Shown in pieces: positions 3,846 to 49,897 of a stretch of 64,000 bases of DNA. The notes below the pieces were generated by a model, which was not told the DNA's origin, searched no databases, and saw only the letters and a program-made list of their open reading frames with translations. Where the stretch lies: the NCBI GenBank assembly GCA_029564935.1, contig JAKQPD010000058.1, positions 40,083 through 104,082 on the forward strand, in the 5' to 3' direction. The stretch is from Bacteroidota bacterium (GTDB lineage Bacteria; Bacteroidota; Bacteroidia; Bacteroidales; VadinHA17). Numbering within the stretch: the stretch's first letter is position 1; each line of letters opens with the position of its first letter. The position numbers were made by a program, and so were the translations under genes.

Positions 3846-3920
3846 AATAAGTTATGAGTAGTGAGTGGTGAGTCTTGCCATCCCTACAAATCGTCGAAAT
3901 TTCGTCGCTTCGTTCCTCAA

Positions 3921-4088
3921 CTTCCGACTTCCGGCTTCCGACTTCCGGCTTCCGACTTCCGGCTTCCGACTTCCGGCTTCCGACTTCCGGCTTCCGGCTT
4001 CCGGCTTCCGGCTTCCGACTTCCGGCTTCCGACTTCCGGCTTCCGACTTCCGGCTTCCGACTTCCGGCTTCCGACTTCGGACTTCCAA
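3921..4088. repeat. 24 gapless units of a 7-bp repeat (CTTCCGA/CTTCCGG)
   Basis: Direct reading; ends 2 bp before the NUDIX stop codon at 4091. Confidence 0.97.
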
Positions 4089-4090
4089 CC

Positions 4091-4702
4091 CTATACTTTA
4101 AGGACCGATATATTGATCATATCCATCAGAGACAACCATGCACTTCCTTTGATCTTATTAAGTTCATCGGGCAGAAGCCATTCCACCTTGGTAATTCCCT
4201 CTTTTATCTGTGGCTCGGTTATCATTTCACCATTATATTTCATAAGGAACCAGCTTGTCTTTTTCAGGTAGGAGATACCTTCCCATGTATATGTATGATA
4301 GCTTGGTTCCAGTGGTTTTACAATTGTCTGGCCCCTGATACCTGATTCTTCGCTGACTTCCCTTAATGCACAGGCCTCAGCTTCCTCCCCTGGTTCGATA
4401 TGACCTTTCGGCAGGTCGAGCCTTCCTTTCTTCTCTATAAACAGGAATCTTCCGGAGGTATGCCTTACAAGCCCGCCGGCTGCACCTACCTCGGTAAAAT
4501 AGATCCTGAAGATCTTCCAGATATGCAGGATATCCGGACCGTAGATATTTATTGCTGATATCTCCGGATTTGCCTGAAAATCTGCAATTATCCTATAAAG
4601 TTCTTTGGTGTCATTGAATTTAAGGAATAACCCGTATTTTTGTAACCGGTCAGGTTCAGGGCTTATCAGAATGAATCTGTTTTCAAAATGAACCTTATAC
4701 AT
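4091..4702 (-). CDS. NUDIX hydrolase
   Basis: Nudix box GHIEPGEEAEACALREVSEESGI. Confidence 0.92.
   Translation of the reverse strand: MYKVHFENRFILISPEPDRLQKYGLFLKFNDTKELYRIIADFQANPEISAINIYGPDILHIWKIFRIYFTEVGAAGGLVRHTSGRFLFIEKKGRLDLPKGHIEPGEEAEACALREVSEESGIRGQTIVKPLEPSYHTYTWEGISYLKKTSWFLMKYNGEMITEPQIKEGITKVEWLLPDELNKIKGSAWLSLMDMINISVLKV
4634..4641 (+). promoter_or_regulatory. Possible Bacteroidetes -7 box (TATTTTTG) for pyrE inside NUDIX 5' coding end
   Basis: TTG about 18 nt upstream of TATTTTTG, about 70 nt before pyrE start; motif only. Confidence 0.35.
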
Positions 4703-16973: not shown

Positions 16974-17127
16974 GCGCAGGGCACAGGGCGAAGAGTTCAG
17001 GGCAAAGGGCGGAGAGCGGAGAGCAGAGAGCGGAGAGCTCAGAGCAAAGAGCGGAGGGCAAAGAGCAAAGAGCCGCAAGCCGCAAGCCGCAAGCCGGAAG
17101 CCGGGAGCCGGAAGCCGGAAGCCGGAA
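16974..17127. repeat. 22 gapless units of a drifting 7-bp repeat (GCGCAGG ... GCGGAGA ... GCAAAGA ... GCCGCAA ... GCCGGAA)
   Basis: Starts at the base after the cydB stop and ends next to the pssA stop (17129-17131). Confidence 0.95.
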
Positions 17128-17128
17128 G

Positions 17129-17878
17129 TTAAAGGTTATGAGCTTTTTCTTTGAAAAGAAGTGAGGCGAGCGATGCAAGTATATACAAAGGTATTATCAG
17201 CGGGGCTGCATTTATCCCTCCGAAAGCAAATGACAGTACTGTCATTATTATGAGTAAATATCTGCCTTCATTACCTTTGAACCTTAGATGGGAAGTTTTC
17301 AGGGAAAGGAGCGGTATACGGCTTACCATAAGAAGTGAGAGGACCAGAGTAAGTATCAACATTGCAGCCGGAGATCCTGTTATTGATTTGCTGATACCCG
17401 GATCGCCGTAAAATGATGCAAAAACAATTGAAATTACTGCGAGTGCACTTGCAGGAGTGGGCAAGCCTTTGAAGGATCTGGCCTGGGTTTCGTCGATATT
17501 GAAGATAGCAAGGCGCAATGCGGCACAAACCGGCATAACAGCTGAGGAACATAACAGAAGGAATACAGGCAAAGAGTCGGAAGTGATAGTAAATGGCTGT
17601 GAAACCCCGAGGGCTTCTGCCAGGAGCAGGAATATTATTAATCCGGGTGCAACACCGAAGCTTACCACATCTGCCAGAGAATCAAGCTCTTTCCCGATAT
17701 CCGAATAAGCCTTCAGCAACCTTGCGGAGAAACCATCCAGAAAATCAAATATCATCGCTGCAAGTATGAGCCAGGAAGCGGAAACAGGATCTCCGTTAAG
17801 GGTGAAAATAATTGAAACAAAGCCTGATGTCAGGTTGAGAGATGTAATAAAGTTGGGAATATGCTTCATTTTGGTCAT
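17129..17878 (-). CDS. pssA: CDP-diacylglycerol--serine O-phosphatidyltransferase (start likely 17869 or 17878; ORF track to 18010)
   Basis: MTKMKHIPNFITSLNLTSGF..., DFLDGFSARLLKAYSDIGKELDSLADVVSFGVAP (CDP-alcohol transferase motif). Confidence 0.93.
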   Translation of the reverse strand: MTKMKHIPNFITSLNLTSGFVSIIFTLNGDPVSASWLILAAMIFDFLDGFSARLLKAYSDIGKELDSLADVVSFGVAPGLIIFLLLAEALGVSQPFTITSDSLPVFLLLCSSAVMPVCAALRLAIFNIDETQARSFKGLPTPASALAVISIVFASFYGDPGISKSITGSPAAMLILTLVLSLLMVSRIPLLSLKTSHLRFKGNEGRYLLIIMTVLSFAFGGINAAPLIIPLYILASLASLLFKEKAHNL

Positions 17879-20474: not shown

Positions 20475-20537
20475 AAAGTGCCTAAAGTGCCTAAAGTGCC
20501 TAAAGTGCCTAAAGTGCCTAAAGTGCCTAAAGTGCCT
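20475..20537. repeat. Seven perfect copies of 9-bp AAAGTGCCT
   Basis: Direct count; abuts the lipid kinase start codon (20468-20470). Confidence 0.97.
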
Positions 20538-20593
20538 AAAGTTATCGTTTTATAGTTAATGTTGTAATATTATGAGATCAATTATCTTAGTAA

Positions 20594-25937: not shown

Positions 25938-25968
25938 TCATTTTTGGTTTAATAGTTCAAATACAATA

Positions 25969-26117
25969 GCTCAGAGCTCAGGGCTCAGAGCTCAGGGTTC
26001 ATCACATATTACCTGGCATGCAGTTGGCAGTTGGCAGTCATTAGCCCTTAGCCCTGCGCTCTGTGCTCTTTGCTCTGTGCTCTGTGCTCTGAGCCCTGTG
26101 CTCTGTGCCCTTCGCCC
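25969..26117. repeat. 7-bp drifting repeat tracts (gctcaga-type 25969-25996; gcagttg...ttagccc...tgtgctc...ttcgccc 26020-26117, 14 gapless units)
   Basis: Direct reading; ends 2 bp before permease stop codon (26120-26122). Confidence 0.93.
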
Positions 26118-26119
26118 TA

Positions 26120-27469
26120 CTATCCGCTGTACCTTAGCCATTTCCAGAGTTCTTTCCACGAGGTTTTCTTTCCGTACATAAGAATGCCTGTTCTGTAGAC
26201 TTTTGCTGCCATCCATACGAAGGCAATAAAGGTTATAACCATTAATGCCATCGACAGGATTATCTGCCAGGCGGGTACGCCAAAGGGAATCCTTGCGACC
26301 ATGACTATCGGTGATGTCAGCGGGATGATTGAAAACCAGAATGCAACAGAACTTTCAGGATTCTGCATAGTACCCATTGCCACAAGGAGTGCCAGAATTA
26401 TCGGTATTGTGACCGGCAGCATGAACTGCTGGGTCTCCGTCTCGTTGTCTACCGCCGATCCTATTGCCGCAAATATTGCCGCATAAAGCAGATAGCCTGT
26501 AACGAAGTAGAATATGAAAGAAAGTATTATAAGAGGCCAGTTCTGATTCATGGCACTGTCAAATATTTTAGCAAATTCCTCTGCCTGGGATGAAATCTCC
26601 CTGGTTTGGGCACTCGCCATCGCAGGCTGGTTTGCCGACATTACATCCTGGGTCACTGTTTGTGTGATATCCGTAATATCCGATTTTTTAAGGACAGTTG
26701 ATTTAACCACGGCAACCGCACCTATAGTCAGGAACACCCATATCAGGAACTGTGTAAGCCCGACAAGGGCAATTCCTATTATTTTTCCCATCATAAGCTC
26801 TGAAGGTTTTACAGAGGAGACAATTACTTCGACAACACGGCTTGTCTTTTCTTCAATCACACCTCTCATGACCTGTGATCCGAAAATGAACACGAGCATG
26901 TACATAAGCAATCCGCCTATATAGGCTAGAGCCATTGAAATTCCCGTACTTGTCTCGGTTGTTTTCCCTCTTTCATCAACCAGCTTTGTTGATACCGAAA
27001 CATTTGTCCTGATCTGCGTGAGTATTGAATCGAGGTTTTGAATATTATAGGTAAGAAGCTTCTGTTTTTCGATTTCTTTTTTCATTGAACCTGAAATATG
27101 ATCCAGAAGTCCTATGTCGGGTTGTTTTTTGGAATAGAGAATGGGGTTGTTAAGCGCTTCGGGAGAGAGATACAGTACACCGAAATACCCCGCTTCCTCG
27201 AATGTGTCGATCAGATCATTTATATTTGCGCCCTCCAGGTAGATGAATTTCTCATTCTTTGTGTCGGGGATTATATTTTTAAAAATTGCAGTATGATCTT
27301 CAACAATGGCTATCTTTTTGTAATCCTTGTCCCCCGAAAGCATTATCAGAGGTACAAGTATGACAAAGGAAGCTATAATCAGAGGCGCAAGAATTGTCAT
27401 TATTATGAAGGATTTCTTTCTGACCCTTGTCAGGTATTCCCGTTTGATAATTATAGCAGTCTTGGTCAT
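26120..27469 (-). CDS. ABC-2 type permease (NatB-like)
   Basis: ITRVRKKSF-type N-terminus, VMRGVIEEKTSRVVEVIVSSVKPSELMMGKIIGIALVGLTQ. Confidence 0.92.
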   Translation of the reverse strand: MTKTAIIIKREYLTRVRKKSFIIMTILAPLIIASFVILVPLIMLSGDKDYKKIAIVEDHTAIFKNIIPDTKNEKFIYLEGANINDLIDTFEEAGYFGVLYLSPEALNNPILYSKKQPDIGLLDHISGSMKKEIEKQKLLTYNIQNLDSILTQIRTNVSVSTKLVDERGKTTETSTGISMALAYIGGLLMYMLVFIFGSQVMRGVIEEKTSRVVEVIVSSVKPSELMMGKIIGIALVGLTQFLIWVFLTIGAVAVVKSTVLKKSDITDITQTVTQDVMSANQPAMASAQTREISSQAEEFAKIFDSAMNQNWPLIILSFIFYFVTGYLLYAAIFAAIGSAVDNETETQQFMLPVTIPIILALLVAMGTMQNPESSVAFWFSIIPLTSPIVMVARIPFGVPAWQIILSMALMVITFIAFVWMAAKVYRTGILMYGKKTSWKELWKWLRYSG

Positions 27470-37948: not shown

Positions 37949-37962
37949 AGAGTAGGGTGAAA

Positions 37963-38038
37963 TTGCTTGTTGCTGGTTGCTTGTTGCTGGTTACTGGTTG
38001 CTGGTTAACGGAACCTGAAACCTGAACCCTGAAACCCT
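37963..38038. repeat. 7-bp drifting repeat (ttgcttg/ttgctgg ... aacctga/accctga)
   Basis: Direct reading, about 10 units; follows GH2 stop. Confidence 0.93.
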
Positions 38039-45475: not shown

Positions 45476-45508
45476 GGCGGGTTACTAAATACTTTTAATA
45501 TACATCTG

Positions 45509-45704
45509 GTTCCGGGTTCCGGGTTCAAGGTTCCAGGTTCAAAGTTTCCGCCCCACGCCCCTCGCCCTCCGCCCTCTGCTCTTCGCTCCTCGCTCTGAGC
45601 CCTGTGCTCTGAGCCCTGTGCTCTGAGCCCTGCGCTCTGAGCCCGTCACCCCCTCTCCTCATCTCCTCTTCTCCCCCTCGCCCACTCGCCACCTCATTCT
45701 TCAC
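45509..45704. repeat. 7-bp drifting repeat (20 gapless units 45509-45648) passing into ctctcctc-type low complexity
   Basis: gttccgg x2, gttcaag, gttccag ... ccctgtg/ctctgag; reaches the stop codon of the next gene (45705). Confidence 0.93.
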
Positions 45705-46196: not shown

Positions 46197-46207
46197 TACT
46201 TTCAGAA

Positions 46208-46283
46208 AATGGGGTGCCTTAATATTACGGGCTGAGATCATACCCTTATACCTGATCCGGATAATGCCGGCGGAGGGAAATAA
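46208..46283 (+). ncRNA. TPP riboswitch (THI element)
   Basis: GGGGTGCC...GGCTGAGATCATACCCTTATACCTGATCCGGATAATGCCGGCGGAGGGAAA matches conserved THI-box segments. Confidence 0.96.
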
Positions 46284-46291
46284 AATCAAAG

Positions 46292-46336
46292 ATGACATCA
46301 GCACCGGAAATTAAAGCCTCATTTTCAGAATTGTAA
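46292..46336 (+). CDS. Possible 14-aa mini-ORF directly after the riboswitch (MTSAPEIKASFSEL)
   Basis: ATG 12 nt after riboswitch end; GGAGGG of the riboswitch upstream; coding status unproven. Confidence 0.3.
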   Translation: MTSAPEIKASFSEL

Positions 46337-46565: not shown

Positions 46566-48995
46566 ATGAAAGCAAAATGTATTTTAGTTCTGGTGTATAT
46601 TTTCATCTTCATTGAGGTTTACGGGCTGCAGGAAAGGACATCAGTTATTCGTGGCAGGATCACGGATATTGAAGGTAATTCTTTGTCAGGTGCGGGTGTG
46701 ACCATTGAAAACACTTTCCTTGGGACGCACACAGCAGCGGATGGGTACTACCGCATTGACGGTCTGAAAGATGGCAATTACAATCTCAGGATTTCATTTA
46801 TCGGCTATGAACCGGAGCTTGTCAGTATTGATCTTGAAGGAGAAGCTGTTGCCAATGTGAGCCTTGTACAGAAATCATTTCTTGCCGGAGAGGTCATTGT
46901 AAATGCTACAAGGGCTGGTTCCCGTTCTCCGCTTGCATATACATCGCTTGAAAATGAGATATTATCAAAGCAGAACAGCGGCCATGATATACCTTATCTG
47001 TTGAGCCTTACGCCATCACTTGTAGAAACTTCAGAAGCCGGCAACGGAATCGGATATACAAACCTCAGGATAAGGGGGACCGATGCCAGCAGAATAAATG
47101 TGACAATGGATGGAATTCCCCTGAATGATCCGGAATCCCAGCAGGTTTTCTGGGTTGATATACCGGATCTGGCATCATCTGTCGATAATATCCAGGTCCA
47201 GCGTGGGGCAGGAACGTCAACAAACGGTGCCGGAGCTTTCGGAGCAACTGTAAATATGCAAACCGGAAATCCCGGGAATGATCCTTTTGCAAAGATCAGC
47301 ACATCTCTTGGCTCTTTCAATACATCCCGGAAGATGATAGCTGCAGGTTCGGGACTTCTTGCCGGAAAGTTCGCCTTTCAGATAAGGTTATCCGACCTGA
47401 AAAGTGACGGGTATATTGACCGGACAGGCTCAGACCATCAGTCGGCATTCATAAACGGTGCCTTCAGAACCGCCAGATCATTCCTTAAGGCCAACATCTT
47501 CCTCGGTCAGGAACATACCGGGATAGGATGGTGGGGAGTACCACCTGAAATTCTTCCGGTGAACAGGAAATATAACCCGGCAGGTGAATATACAGATGAA
47601 AATAATGTCGTTCAATATTATGATAATGAGAGTGATAATTATAATCAGAATCATTACCAGCTGTTTTACGGTCTGAAACTCAATAATTCACTGAGCCTCA
47701 GTACGGCTTTTCACTATACCTCGGGGGAAGGTTATTATGAAGAATTCAAGGAAGACAGAGATTTGTCAGATTACGGATTACCTGATATAATTACAGGTGA
47801 AAGTATTATTTCCCAATCCGATCTGATAAGGAGGAAATGGATGGATAATGATTTTTACGGTCTGGTTTATTCAGTTAAGTATAAAACGGATAAACTGTCA
47901 GCCACATTTGGCGGAGGCGGTAATTATTATTCAGGCGATCATTACGGCAGGATAATATGGATGAGCAATCCTGGTAATATCCCCAAAGACCACCAGTGGT
48001 ATTTAAACAACGGAAAGAAAGGAGAGGTCAGTACCTATGCCAAGGCTGATTATGTCCTTAATGAAAAACTGTCATTGTTCGCAGATCTTCAGTTCAGATT
48101 TATCGATTACAGGATGGATGGTAATGACGATGATCTCAAAGATCTTGGCCAGAGACATCATTATGCATTCCTGAACCCGAAAGCAGGACTGTTCTATTCA
48201 ATTGATCAGAACCAGGATGCTTATCTTTCATTTTCTGTGGCAAACCGTGAGCCGACAAGGGCTGATTTCAAGGAAGCCGCGGGAGATCCTGATGCAGTTC
48301 CCCAACCTGAAACTCTTTATGATACTGAACTGGGATATAAACTGAGAAAAGAAAGGTATTCTGCAGCAATAAACCTGTATGCAATGCTTTACAATGACCA
48401 GCTCGTACCTACAGGCGAACTCAGCAGTACCGGCTATCCGATAATGACAAATGTTAAAAAGAGCCGCCGGCTGGGTATCGAATTATCTGCGGGACTGAGA
48501 CCGGCAGATTTCTTTGACTGGAATCTGAATCTGACCTTAAGCAGTAATAAGATCCCGGATTTTATAGAATATTACATTGATTATAATACTTCCGACTGGT
48601 CAGAGGAATACAGGAGCATGAATCTCGGGACAGTCGATATAGCATATTCACCCTCAGCGACCGGTACGAGTGATCTTAACTTTAAAATCCTGAAAAATAC
48701 AGAACTGCATTTAATAAGCAAATATGTCGGTGAGCAGTATTTTGACAATACGATGAACAGCGAAAGAATGATAGATCCATATTTTGTCAATAATCTGAGG
48801 ATAGATTTCAATCCGTCAATCAGAGGCCTTAAAAATGCAGGTTTTCAGCTATTTATAAATAATATTCTTAACCACAGGTATGAAAGTAATGCCTATGGCG
48901 GCAACTGGTTCGAAGACGGGGTTGAAAAAACATGGTCATATTTCTTTCCTCAGGCGGGGATTAATTTTATGGTGAAAGCGGAGCTTGCTTTTTAA
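46566..48995 (+). CDS. TonB-dependent receptor with carboxypeptidase-like N-domain (candidate thiamine/precursor receptor)
   Basis: RGRITDIEGNSLSGAGVTIENTFLGT...; plug LRIRGTDASRINVTMDGIPLNDPESQQVFWVDIPDLAS; downstream of TPP riboswitch. Confidence 0.92.
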   Translation: MKAKCILVLVYIFIFIEVYGLQERTSVIRGRITDIEGNSLSGAGVTIENTFLGTHTAADGYYRIDGLKDGNYNLRISFIGYEPELVSIDLEGEAVANVSLVQKSFLAGEVIVNATRAGSRSPLAYTSLENEILSKQNSGHDIPYLLSLTPSLVETSEAGNGIGYTNLRIRGTDASRINVTMDGIPLNDPESQQVFWVDIPDLASSVDNIQVQRGAGTSTNGAGAFGATVNMQTGNPGNDPFAKISTSLGSFNTSRKMIAAGSGLLAGKFAFQIRLSDLKSDGYIDRTGSDHQSAFINGAFRTARSFLKANIFLGQEHTGIGWWGVPPEILPVNRKYNPAGEYTDENNVVQYYDNESDNYNQNHYQLFYGLKLNNSLSLSTAFHYTSGEGYYEEFKEDRDLSDYGLPDIITGESIISQSDLIRRKWMDNDFYGLVYSVKYKTDKLSATFGGGGNYYSGDHYGRIIWMSNPGNIPKDHQWYLNNGKKGEVSTYAKADYVLNEKLSLFADLQFRFIDYRMDGNDDDLKDLGQRHHYAFLNPKAGLFYSIDQNQDAYLSFSVANREPTRADFKEAAGDPDAVPQPETLYDTELGYKLRKERYSAAINLYAMLYNDQLVPTGELSSTGYPIMTNVKKSRRLGIELSAGLRPADFFDWNLNLTLSSNKIPDFIEYYIDYNTSDWSEEYRSMNLGTVDIAYSPSATGTSDLNFKILKNTELHLISKYVGEQYFDNTMNSERMIDPYFVNNLRIDFNPSIRGLKNAGFQLFINNILNHRYESNAYGGNWFEDGVEKTWSYFFPQAGINFMVKAELAF

Positions 48996-48996
48996 C

Positions 48997-49122
48997 CTTT
49001 GTGCTCTTCGTGTGAACTTAGTGCTCTTCGTGGTTAAGCTTTTAAATCCCTTAACCACAAAGCCTGCCTGGCTGACGCTAGTCAGACAGGGACACGAAGG
49101 TTAACACAAAGAGCACAAAGGA
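48997..49122. repeat. Second copy of the cctttgtgct/agcacaaagg imperfect inverted repeat, interrupted by a cctgcctggctgacgctagtcagacagg segment
   Basis: Arms resemble the element at 5793-5889. Confidence 0.8.
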
Positions 49123-49171
49123 AGAAAATACCAATTTTTTTCAATAACAACCAGTAACCAGCAACAAACAC

Positions 49172-49897
49172 ATGACTAACTGGATAGCAACTAATTACAT
49201 AGAGATTTTCGGTGCTGTAGCCGGGATAATCTATGTATTCCTTGAGATCAGGCAGAACATATGGCTATGGCCTGTCGGGATTGTTACATCGGCAGTTTAT
49301 ATATATGTTTTCTTCACCGGGAAGCTTTATGCGGATATGAGCCTTCAGGGGTACTATTTAGCGATAAGTCTGGCAGGGTGGTACTGGTGGTTGAGAGGCT
49401 CAGGGCGCAGAGCACACGTGTCCTCCGAAGCTTTAGCGAAGGAGGAGGGCTCAGGGCAGGAGGGGAAGAGGAGAGGGGGAGAGGGGGAGATAGGGAGAGG
49501 GGGAGATGATGAAAAGGTGAAAGGGAGAGGGGGAGAGGGGGAGAGACCGGGGGACGAAGAGACGGAGGGACTGAAGGTCACAAGGCTTACATTGATAACC
49601 GGAATTATTTTGGCAATCGTTTTTGTGGTCTTATATGGGTTAATGTGGTTTGTACTTGACGGATTAACCGATTCTCCTGTCCCGCAGTGGGACTCATTTA
49701 TAACGTCCCTCTCAATAGTTGCTACCTGGATGCTGGCAAGGAAGATCTATGAGCACTGGTTCCTGTGGATAATAGTAAATACTACAGCAGCTATACTTTT
49801 CTTTACCAGAGGATTGTTTCCGACAGTGGTTCTGTATTTTATTTACCTGGTAATGTCTTTTGCCGGGTTGAAGGCATGGAAACACTCAAATAACTGA
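49172..49897 (+). CDS. PnuC/PnuT-family transporter with about 59-aa low-complexity insertion
   Basis: EIFGAVAGIIYVFLEIRQNIWLWPVGIVTSAVYIYVFF; WMLARKIYEHWFLWIIVN; insertion aa about 75-133. Confidence 0.9.
   Translation: MTNWIATNYIEIFGAVAGIIYVFLEIRQNIWLWPVGIVTSAVYIYVFFTGKLYADMSLQGYYLAISLAGWYWWLRGSGRRAHVSSEALAKEEGSGQEGKRRGGEGEIGRGGDDEKVKGRGGEGERPGDEETEGLKVTRLTLITGIILAIVFVVLYGLMWFVLDGLTDSPVPQWDSFITSLSIVATWMLARKIYEHWFLWIIVNTTAAILFFTRGLFPTVVLYFIYLVMSFAGLKAWKHSNN
49394..49570. repeat. Composite repeat inside the transporter ORF: 7-mers, a cctccgaagctttagcgaaggagg imperfect palindrome, then 8-mers gagagggg
   Basis: Direct reading; in frame, no stop. Confidence 0.9.

Follow-up and report, generated by a model that had tools for sequence, protein, structure and literature searches.

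How does repeat DNA that otherwise lies between genes come to be read, in frame, in the middle of a membrane transporter? The question is raised by a locus in the 64,000-nucleotide stretch of DNA analysed here (hereafter the window), in which a gene of the pnuC family is interrupted by a composite tract of short tandem repeats and an imperfect palindrome. We examined the gene and its neighbourhood, the same repeats elsewhere in the genome, and the corresponding site in relatives within and outside the genus.

A PnuC-family transporter gene in a probable thiamine locus

The protein encoded by the interrupted gene (Table 1) matched the PF04973 NMN_transporter profile over positions 1-174 of 175 (E 3e-50, 171 bits against a cut-off of 27.3). 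It was also matched by TIGR01528 and, by profile, matched the solved PnuC structure PDB 4QTN (E 4e-12). An AlphaFold2 model of the 241-aa protein (mean pLDDT 75) gave 4qtn_A and 4qtn_C as its top Foldseek matches (E 4e-5 and 6e-5, TM 0.53). With its full-length PF04973 match and 4QTN fold, the window protein belongs to the PnuC/PnuT family. It has seven transmembrane segments (TM) in a 3+1+3 arrangement, and the repeat tract lies between TM3 and TM4, i.e. where the first unit of three helices gives way to the linker helix of this fold. The helices were modelled with moderate to good confidence and linker residues 81-140 with a pLDDT of about 50-59, from which the linker is probably disordered. 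The positive-inside rule, applied by eye, places the TM3-TM4 loop probably on the cytosolic side.

Upstream lie a TPP riboswitch, which six of the seven relatives tested also have some 2.5 kb before pnuC, and a TonB-dependent receptor gene, whose family was assigned by reading the sequence rather than by a family search. The OMthi-pnuT thiamine locus of Bacteroidetes likewise comprises a PnuC-family inner-membrane protein, a TonB receptor and a TPP riboswitch (PMC5613172). Because of this shared arrangement the window gene is probably pnuT, and its substrate would be thiamine. The window locus departs from the described loci in two respects. The TM3-TM4 linker of Bacteroidales homologues outside the genus has 8 aa whereas that of the window is long and made of repeats, and tnr3 is absent directly downstream, where the ORF that follows resembles a SusC-type receptor. 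In the intergenic region between the TonB gene and pnuT (49000-49140), inverted 'cacaaag...ctttgtg' repeats flank a gcctgcctggctgacgctagtcagacaggg palindrome.

Table 1 Features of the transporter locus (positions in the window)
Feature	Position	Strand	Basis
TPP riboswitch (RF00059)	46200..46295	+	Rfam, 56.2 bits, E 2.5e-8
TonB-dependent receptor gene, OMthi-like by position	46566..48995	+	ORF; behind TPP riboswitch; family by sequence reading
pnuC-family (pnuT-like) transporter gene	49172..49897	+	ORF, 241 aa; PF04973; TIGR01528; PDB 4QTN
Repeat-filled TM3-TM4 linker, residues about 75-135, hydrophilic	49394..49576	+	Alignment of 24 genus proteins; loop extraction; AlphaFold2 pLDDT
Heptamer block 1 (gctcagg gcgcaga gcacacg tgt)	49398..49421	+	Sequence; same block intergenic before palindrome
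Imperfect palindrome cctccgaagctttagcgaaggagg, 24 bp, member of a dispersed family	49422..49445	+	Copies in own genome
Heptamer block 2 (gctcagg gcaggag)	49449..49462	+	Sequence
Octamer block (ggagaggg type)	49470..49545	+	TRF, period 8, 9.8 copies, score 75
Second-type octamers, three (gacgaaga gacggagg gactgaag)	49553..49576	+	Sequence; pair alignment of the window with L037

Composition of the tract and its counterparts in the own genome

The linker comprises 57-59 hydrophilic residues. A preliminary description of the locus had proposed about 59 such residues between TM3 and TM4, encoded by 7-mers, an imperfect palindrome and 8-mers in a row, with a length that fits the frame and no stop. 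The count agrees with residues 75-133, all three repeat types were located in the sequence or by TRF, and the ORF stays open through the whole tract. The proposed span of 49394-49570 had the right site but ended too early: because the 3' end carries octamers like those at this end of the loop in the nearest relative, L037, the repeat-built DNA was taken to extend to about 49576. Autocorrelation of the window loop at lag 8 exceeded dinucleotide shuffles (z 5.7); as DNA, the tract had no significant hairpin energy (z -1.6).

In the own genome (G000) the loop DNA had 50 further BLAST matches, many of them weak. The best was an intergenic copy of the heptamer-palindrome composite (contig C62, 5969-6018; 92% over 50 bp). 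The palindrome core was present in 33 copies at two or fewer mismatches, compared with none for the reversed control, and among 30 copies examined that of the window was the only one in a bona fide gene, one other falling in a doubtful 119-aa ORF. Octamer tracts resembling ggagaggg were found in intergenic DNA, and 501 kb of this genome held 28 lag-7 tracts outside ORFs, their unit type being the same as in the loop. The loop heptamers are therefore of the intergenic-heptamer kind, defined by degenerate 7-nt periodicity in dispersed intergenic tracts.

Several other repeat arrangements were noted in this genome. Further heptamer or octamer tracts of the window, of the types acttccg, gagagca, ctgtgct, ttgctgg and gctctgagccctgt, lie at 3910-4096, 16977-17144, 25959-26122, 37957-38014 and 45502-45698, where mechanical calls place no ORF of 100 aa or more, and a perfect 9-mer tandem array, AAAGTGCCT, occupies 20475-20542 (7.6 copies, 100% matches). 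On contig C287 (L192, 8880-9170) a 96-bp unit with the TCCGAAGC palindrome in each copy is repeated three times in tandem, directly behind an apparent tRNA 3' end. On contig C438 (L193, 3700-3850) the TCCGAAGC palindrome is nested inside a tccgtagcc...ggcgaagga palindrome, the whole being duplicated at a spacing of 63 bp.

One alternative is that a REP/MITE-like mobile element equipped with a transposase of the Y1 family (RAYT) targets the loop or copies itself into it, as for Rickettsia palindromic elements. Resident palindrome families do occur in the loops of several species, the window's TCCGAAGC family being found in the opposite orientation in the loop of L012, and the genome has three Y1_Tnp genes. 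The TCCGAAGC palindrome was absent from all three Y1 loci, however, and since other palindromes flank these genes an origin by a RAYT transposase was rejected. Most loops moreover consist of heptamers or octamers without any palindrome, target-site duplications were not identified, and a bona fide gene holds just one of the 30 copies examined. We consider insertion by such an element unlikely.

A repeat-filled loop throughout the genus

Among 62 genomes belonging to the window's GTDB genus, which are drafts (MAGs) of uncultured Bacteroidales or Bacteroidetes with one per species, 57 had the gene. Their 53 distinct loops measured 7 to 98 aa, with a median of 28. Among 29 relatives outside the genus the loop was exactly 8 aa in 25, and 4, 5, 10 and 10 aa in the others. 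An order-wide search of 295 genomes found nearly only uninterrupted PnuC outside the genus, a result that takes in the single further genus sampled from the family.

In the pooled autocorrelation of 43 genus loops, lag 7 had a z score of 18.6 and lag 8 one of 11.2 against dinucleotide shuffles, with peaks at 7, 14, 21 and 28 nt and at 8, 16 and 24 nt; lags 3, 6 and 9 were unremarkable. Since units of 7 and 8 nt shift the frame, this periodicity does not arise from repeating codons, and the loop repeat is one of DNA and not of protein. Units compared at the best lag matched mostly at about 40-70%, the highest value for any loop being 0.82, and extraction of the loops from the genus sequences gave no common peptide or motif. 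The quadruplex motif G3+N1-7 was present in 21 of the 53 loops, compared with 6.9 in shuffles.

Loop content can mirror the host genome, as seen in individual cases rather than by statistics: L012 is one, and the G014 loop holds two palindromes of the CCCCCTTTGAAGGGGG type, of which there are 42 copies in the G014 genome and none in that of the window. In G007 the loop is purely heptameric and heptamer-peptide matches number more than 100 genome-wide. A count over that genome gave 105 heptamer-coded peptide matches, and the tracts sampled from it (L253-L270) were intergenic, several of them beginning right where the gene before them ends in its stop codon. Genomes differ in how many repeats they carry, and the loop of the repeat-poor genome G011 is still repeat-derived, which points to inheritance rather than fresh capture in such genomes.

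The preliminary description had seen in this site an intergenic repeat process at work inside a coding gene and making a charged loop, a view that the short loops outside the genus, the intergenic composites and the kept frame bear out. It had also named two findings that would overturn it, a loop of the same kind encoded by non-repetitive codons in homologues and a frameshifted or misassembled tract. Homologues outside the genus mostly had a loop of 8 aa, and no loop with the same peptide in non-repetitive codons was found. Short reads could in principle collapse or misjoin repeats during assembly or binning; the genomes are without exception draft MAGs, and the loop of one copy contains an NN gap. 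Against this, in about 50 independent assemblies from different studies the tract sits at one and the same codon, its frame open and free of stops, and the loops are only 20-300 bp long and degenerate. An artefact is thus extremely improbable.

Rapid turnover of loop content

Loops were compared on a tree built from the protein core after removal of the loop, obtained by a quick search and holding many weakly supported forks; the sister pairs considered here rest on well supported forks together with DNA identity. The cores of L010 and L032 are 95% identical in DNA and their loops have 35 and 9 aa, while those of L020 and L077 are 87% identical with loops of 9 and 95 aa. In L021 and L030 (core DNA 93% identical) the loop DNA has been replaced between near-identical flanks. 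The window and its nearest relative, L037, share about 80% of core DNA identity and have tracts that are alike at their ends and differ in the middle, where the window carries the palindrome and another octamer type.

Over the whole tree the repeat class changed at least 27 times. Short loops are nested beside long ones: with the outgroup included, six changes between short and long were required, short loops arose at least five times, and at least five lineages hold short loops of 7-13 aa. The six changes fit a single basal gain followed by five contractions.

This turnover bears on the proposal that the loop is a selected, functional segment, for instance a tether or regulatory element for which the repeats are raw material and which binds the membrane, RNA or an enzyme that processes thiamine. 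The loop is kept in nearly the whole genus and is hydrophilic throughout, and its mean charge per residue passes from mildly basic at its start (+0.06) to mildly acidic at its end (-0.07). Sisters nevertheless differ freely in sequence, length and repeat class, short-loop lineages have arisen repeatedly, no motif is conserved, and the low-confidence prediction is that of a probably disordered segment, so that a selected function of this kind appears quite unlikely.

Reading frame, strand and hydrophobicity

Across the 53 loops, no stop was found in 1797 coding-frame codons, a count that is partly zero by construction since the genes were found as single ORFs; the other two sense frames held 50 and 114. 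One of about 55 genus genes, L002 of G012, has an in-frame TAG in the loop. Either the filter against stops is not absolute, or the gene is decaying or split, or the assembly is in error. On its contig (C64) an in-frame ATG follows a few codons past the TAG, so that the locus may hold a transporter made in two pieces, a gene in decay or an error. The split gene of G062 was rejected as biology, there being an NN assembly gap within the loop.

Non-triplet units within a coding frame, tract lengths that differ among close relatives and a species with an in-frame stop in its loop are features that a contingency (phase-variation) switch might have, in which slippage of 7- or 8-nt units would turn the transporter on and off by frameshift. 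However, the copies are degenerate, which lowers slippage rates, and nearly all sequenced copies are in frame without stops. The stop of G012 is a single point stop in the unshifted frame and not a frameshift, and neither near-perfect repeats nor frameshifted alleles were seen in the loops. The tract also sits in the middle of the gene, a position in which simple repeats are reportedly suppressed (PMC4692102). A switch is accordingly a very unlikely explanation.

The sense frames were all hydrophilic (mean GRAVY -1.5 to -1.9) and the antisense frames mostly hydrophobic. Among loops of at least 54 nt, 46 of 47 were purine-rich in sense and none was pyrimidine-rich, although these 47 are not independent, given the common descent of the tract. 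Intergenic 7- and 8-mer tracts between co-directional genes (genus loci L058-L107, L138-L157 and L191-L250) had the purine-rich strand as the sense strand in 19 of the 22 cases that could be oriented (p 0.0009; the tracts may be non-independent). This bias was absent outside the genus, and strand preference was mixed among the intergenic tracts of G007. Avoidance of stops was rejected as the sole cause of the orientation, the pyrimidine strand of intergenic tracts being open at least as often as the purine strand. The loop orientation fits better with avoidance of the antisense reading, which is mostly hydrophobic. The purine-sense orientation would follow from selection for a soluble linker; a strand-biased mutational process is possible as well, given the intergenic purine bias.

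Repeat tracts are nearly confined to one gene in the coding DNA sampled

About 1.6 Mb of genus ORFs were screened, together with peptide searches over 60 genomes. The coding sample was partly centred on pnuC loci, and the DNA set against the loop came from their flanks and from G011 (400 kb), the own genome (501 kb) and other genomes (260 kb); outside pnuC, repeats and ORFs (at least 100 aa) were called mechanically rather than by a gene finder. Of 36 tracts with 7- or 8-nt periodicity inside sampled ORFs, 33 lay in the TM3-TM4 loop, from 30 loci. The other three are doubtful, falling in an ORF at a contig end, in a 112-aa ORF and in a likely upstream extension. The peptide searches returned other long open frames; the view that many other genes are hit was rejected, as the candidates followed up, from G019, G065 and G007, abut a stop codon or precede a likely start. 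In this sample, the repeat tracts are nearly exclusive to the transporter gene. The insertion site is old and its content young, and the tract is genus-wide and nearly exclusive to one gene.

Proposed origin of the loop

We consider it likely that an ancestral insertion into a tolerant linker was followed by churning of its content through slippage and repeat capture, filtered for frame, stops and hydrophilicity. The 8-codon linker would have received intergenic repeat DNA once, in the ancestor of the genus. The tract would then have expanded, shrunk, been replaced and been invaded by local palindrome families, the most probable steps being slippage during replication, unequal exchange and a switch of template from one repeat to another. 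Quadruplex motifs in the loops could promote stalling. Polymerase slippage has been linked, as a hypothesis, to heptamers elsewhere (cited in PMC4692102). Selection on the transporter would remove frameshifts, in-frame stops and hydrophobic stretches of linker. Because the purine-rich strand codes for Gly, Glu, Arg, Lys and Gln in any frame, the product would be a harmless flexible linker; we infer that the tract is translated and that its effect on transport is near-neutral.

A process that itself prefers this one codon position, for example template switching driven by R-loops or quadruplexes on a purine-rich transcribed strand, might instead recruit repeats as protein continuously. We regard this as rather doubtful.

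Relation to known repeat systems

Palindromes in frame within genes are already known from Rickettsia and from REP-bearing genomes (PMC10969869, PMC3733652). The Rickettsia palindromic elements (RPE) are in-frame insertions into protein genes (Ogata et al. 2000, 2002, reviewed in PMC10969869) and, in the account of that review, resemble the present case in being dispersed palindromic DNA that is found both between genes and in frame within them and is tolerated by the host protein. By the same account RPEs are about 150 bp long, encode a conserved peptide and enter many unrelated genes, whereas the window has one gene and one loop of mixed content, mostly 7- and 8-mers, without a conserved peptide. 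Its palindrome is 24 bp long and has one of the 30 copies examined in a bona fide gene, and the loops of the genus share no peptide.

Intragenic REPs of the GTAG/CGTC families are, like the window palindrome, short palindromes of intergenic families inside ORFs (PMC3733652). In some species their clusters encode 43-82 residues, and some of the ORFs are the sole ones modified in their species (PMC3733652). The window differs in that a GTAG/CGTC tag was not noted and no Y1 transposase gene adjoins, that palindromes are only part of the loop, and that the target is a membrane transporter, many of the REP targets being DNA repair genes (PMC3733652).

The heptameric intergenic repeats of Xanthomonas and Nostoc (GGGAATC, GGGGATT; PMC4692102) resemble those of the loop in being G-rich, degenerate, mostly intergenic, fast-changing between relatives and quadruplex-prone. 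They are, however, under-represented on the coding strand in ORFs (PMC4692102), and here the repeats occupy the coding strand of one ORF genus-wide. A single recurrent loop filled across a genus with mixed 7-mers, 8-mers and palindromes is, as far as we have searched, new.

The genus thus offers a natural case in which junk-like repeats become protein at a single tolerated site. It also raises the question of why only this gene is hit in the coding DNA sampled. With about 50 species in which non-coding repeats are written into one site of one transporter, it forms a natural series that allows measurement of the rate at which such DNA enters proteins, of the filters that it passes (frame, stops and hydrophobicity), and of its cost.
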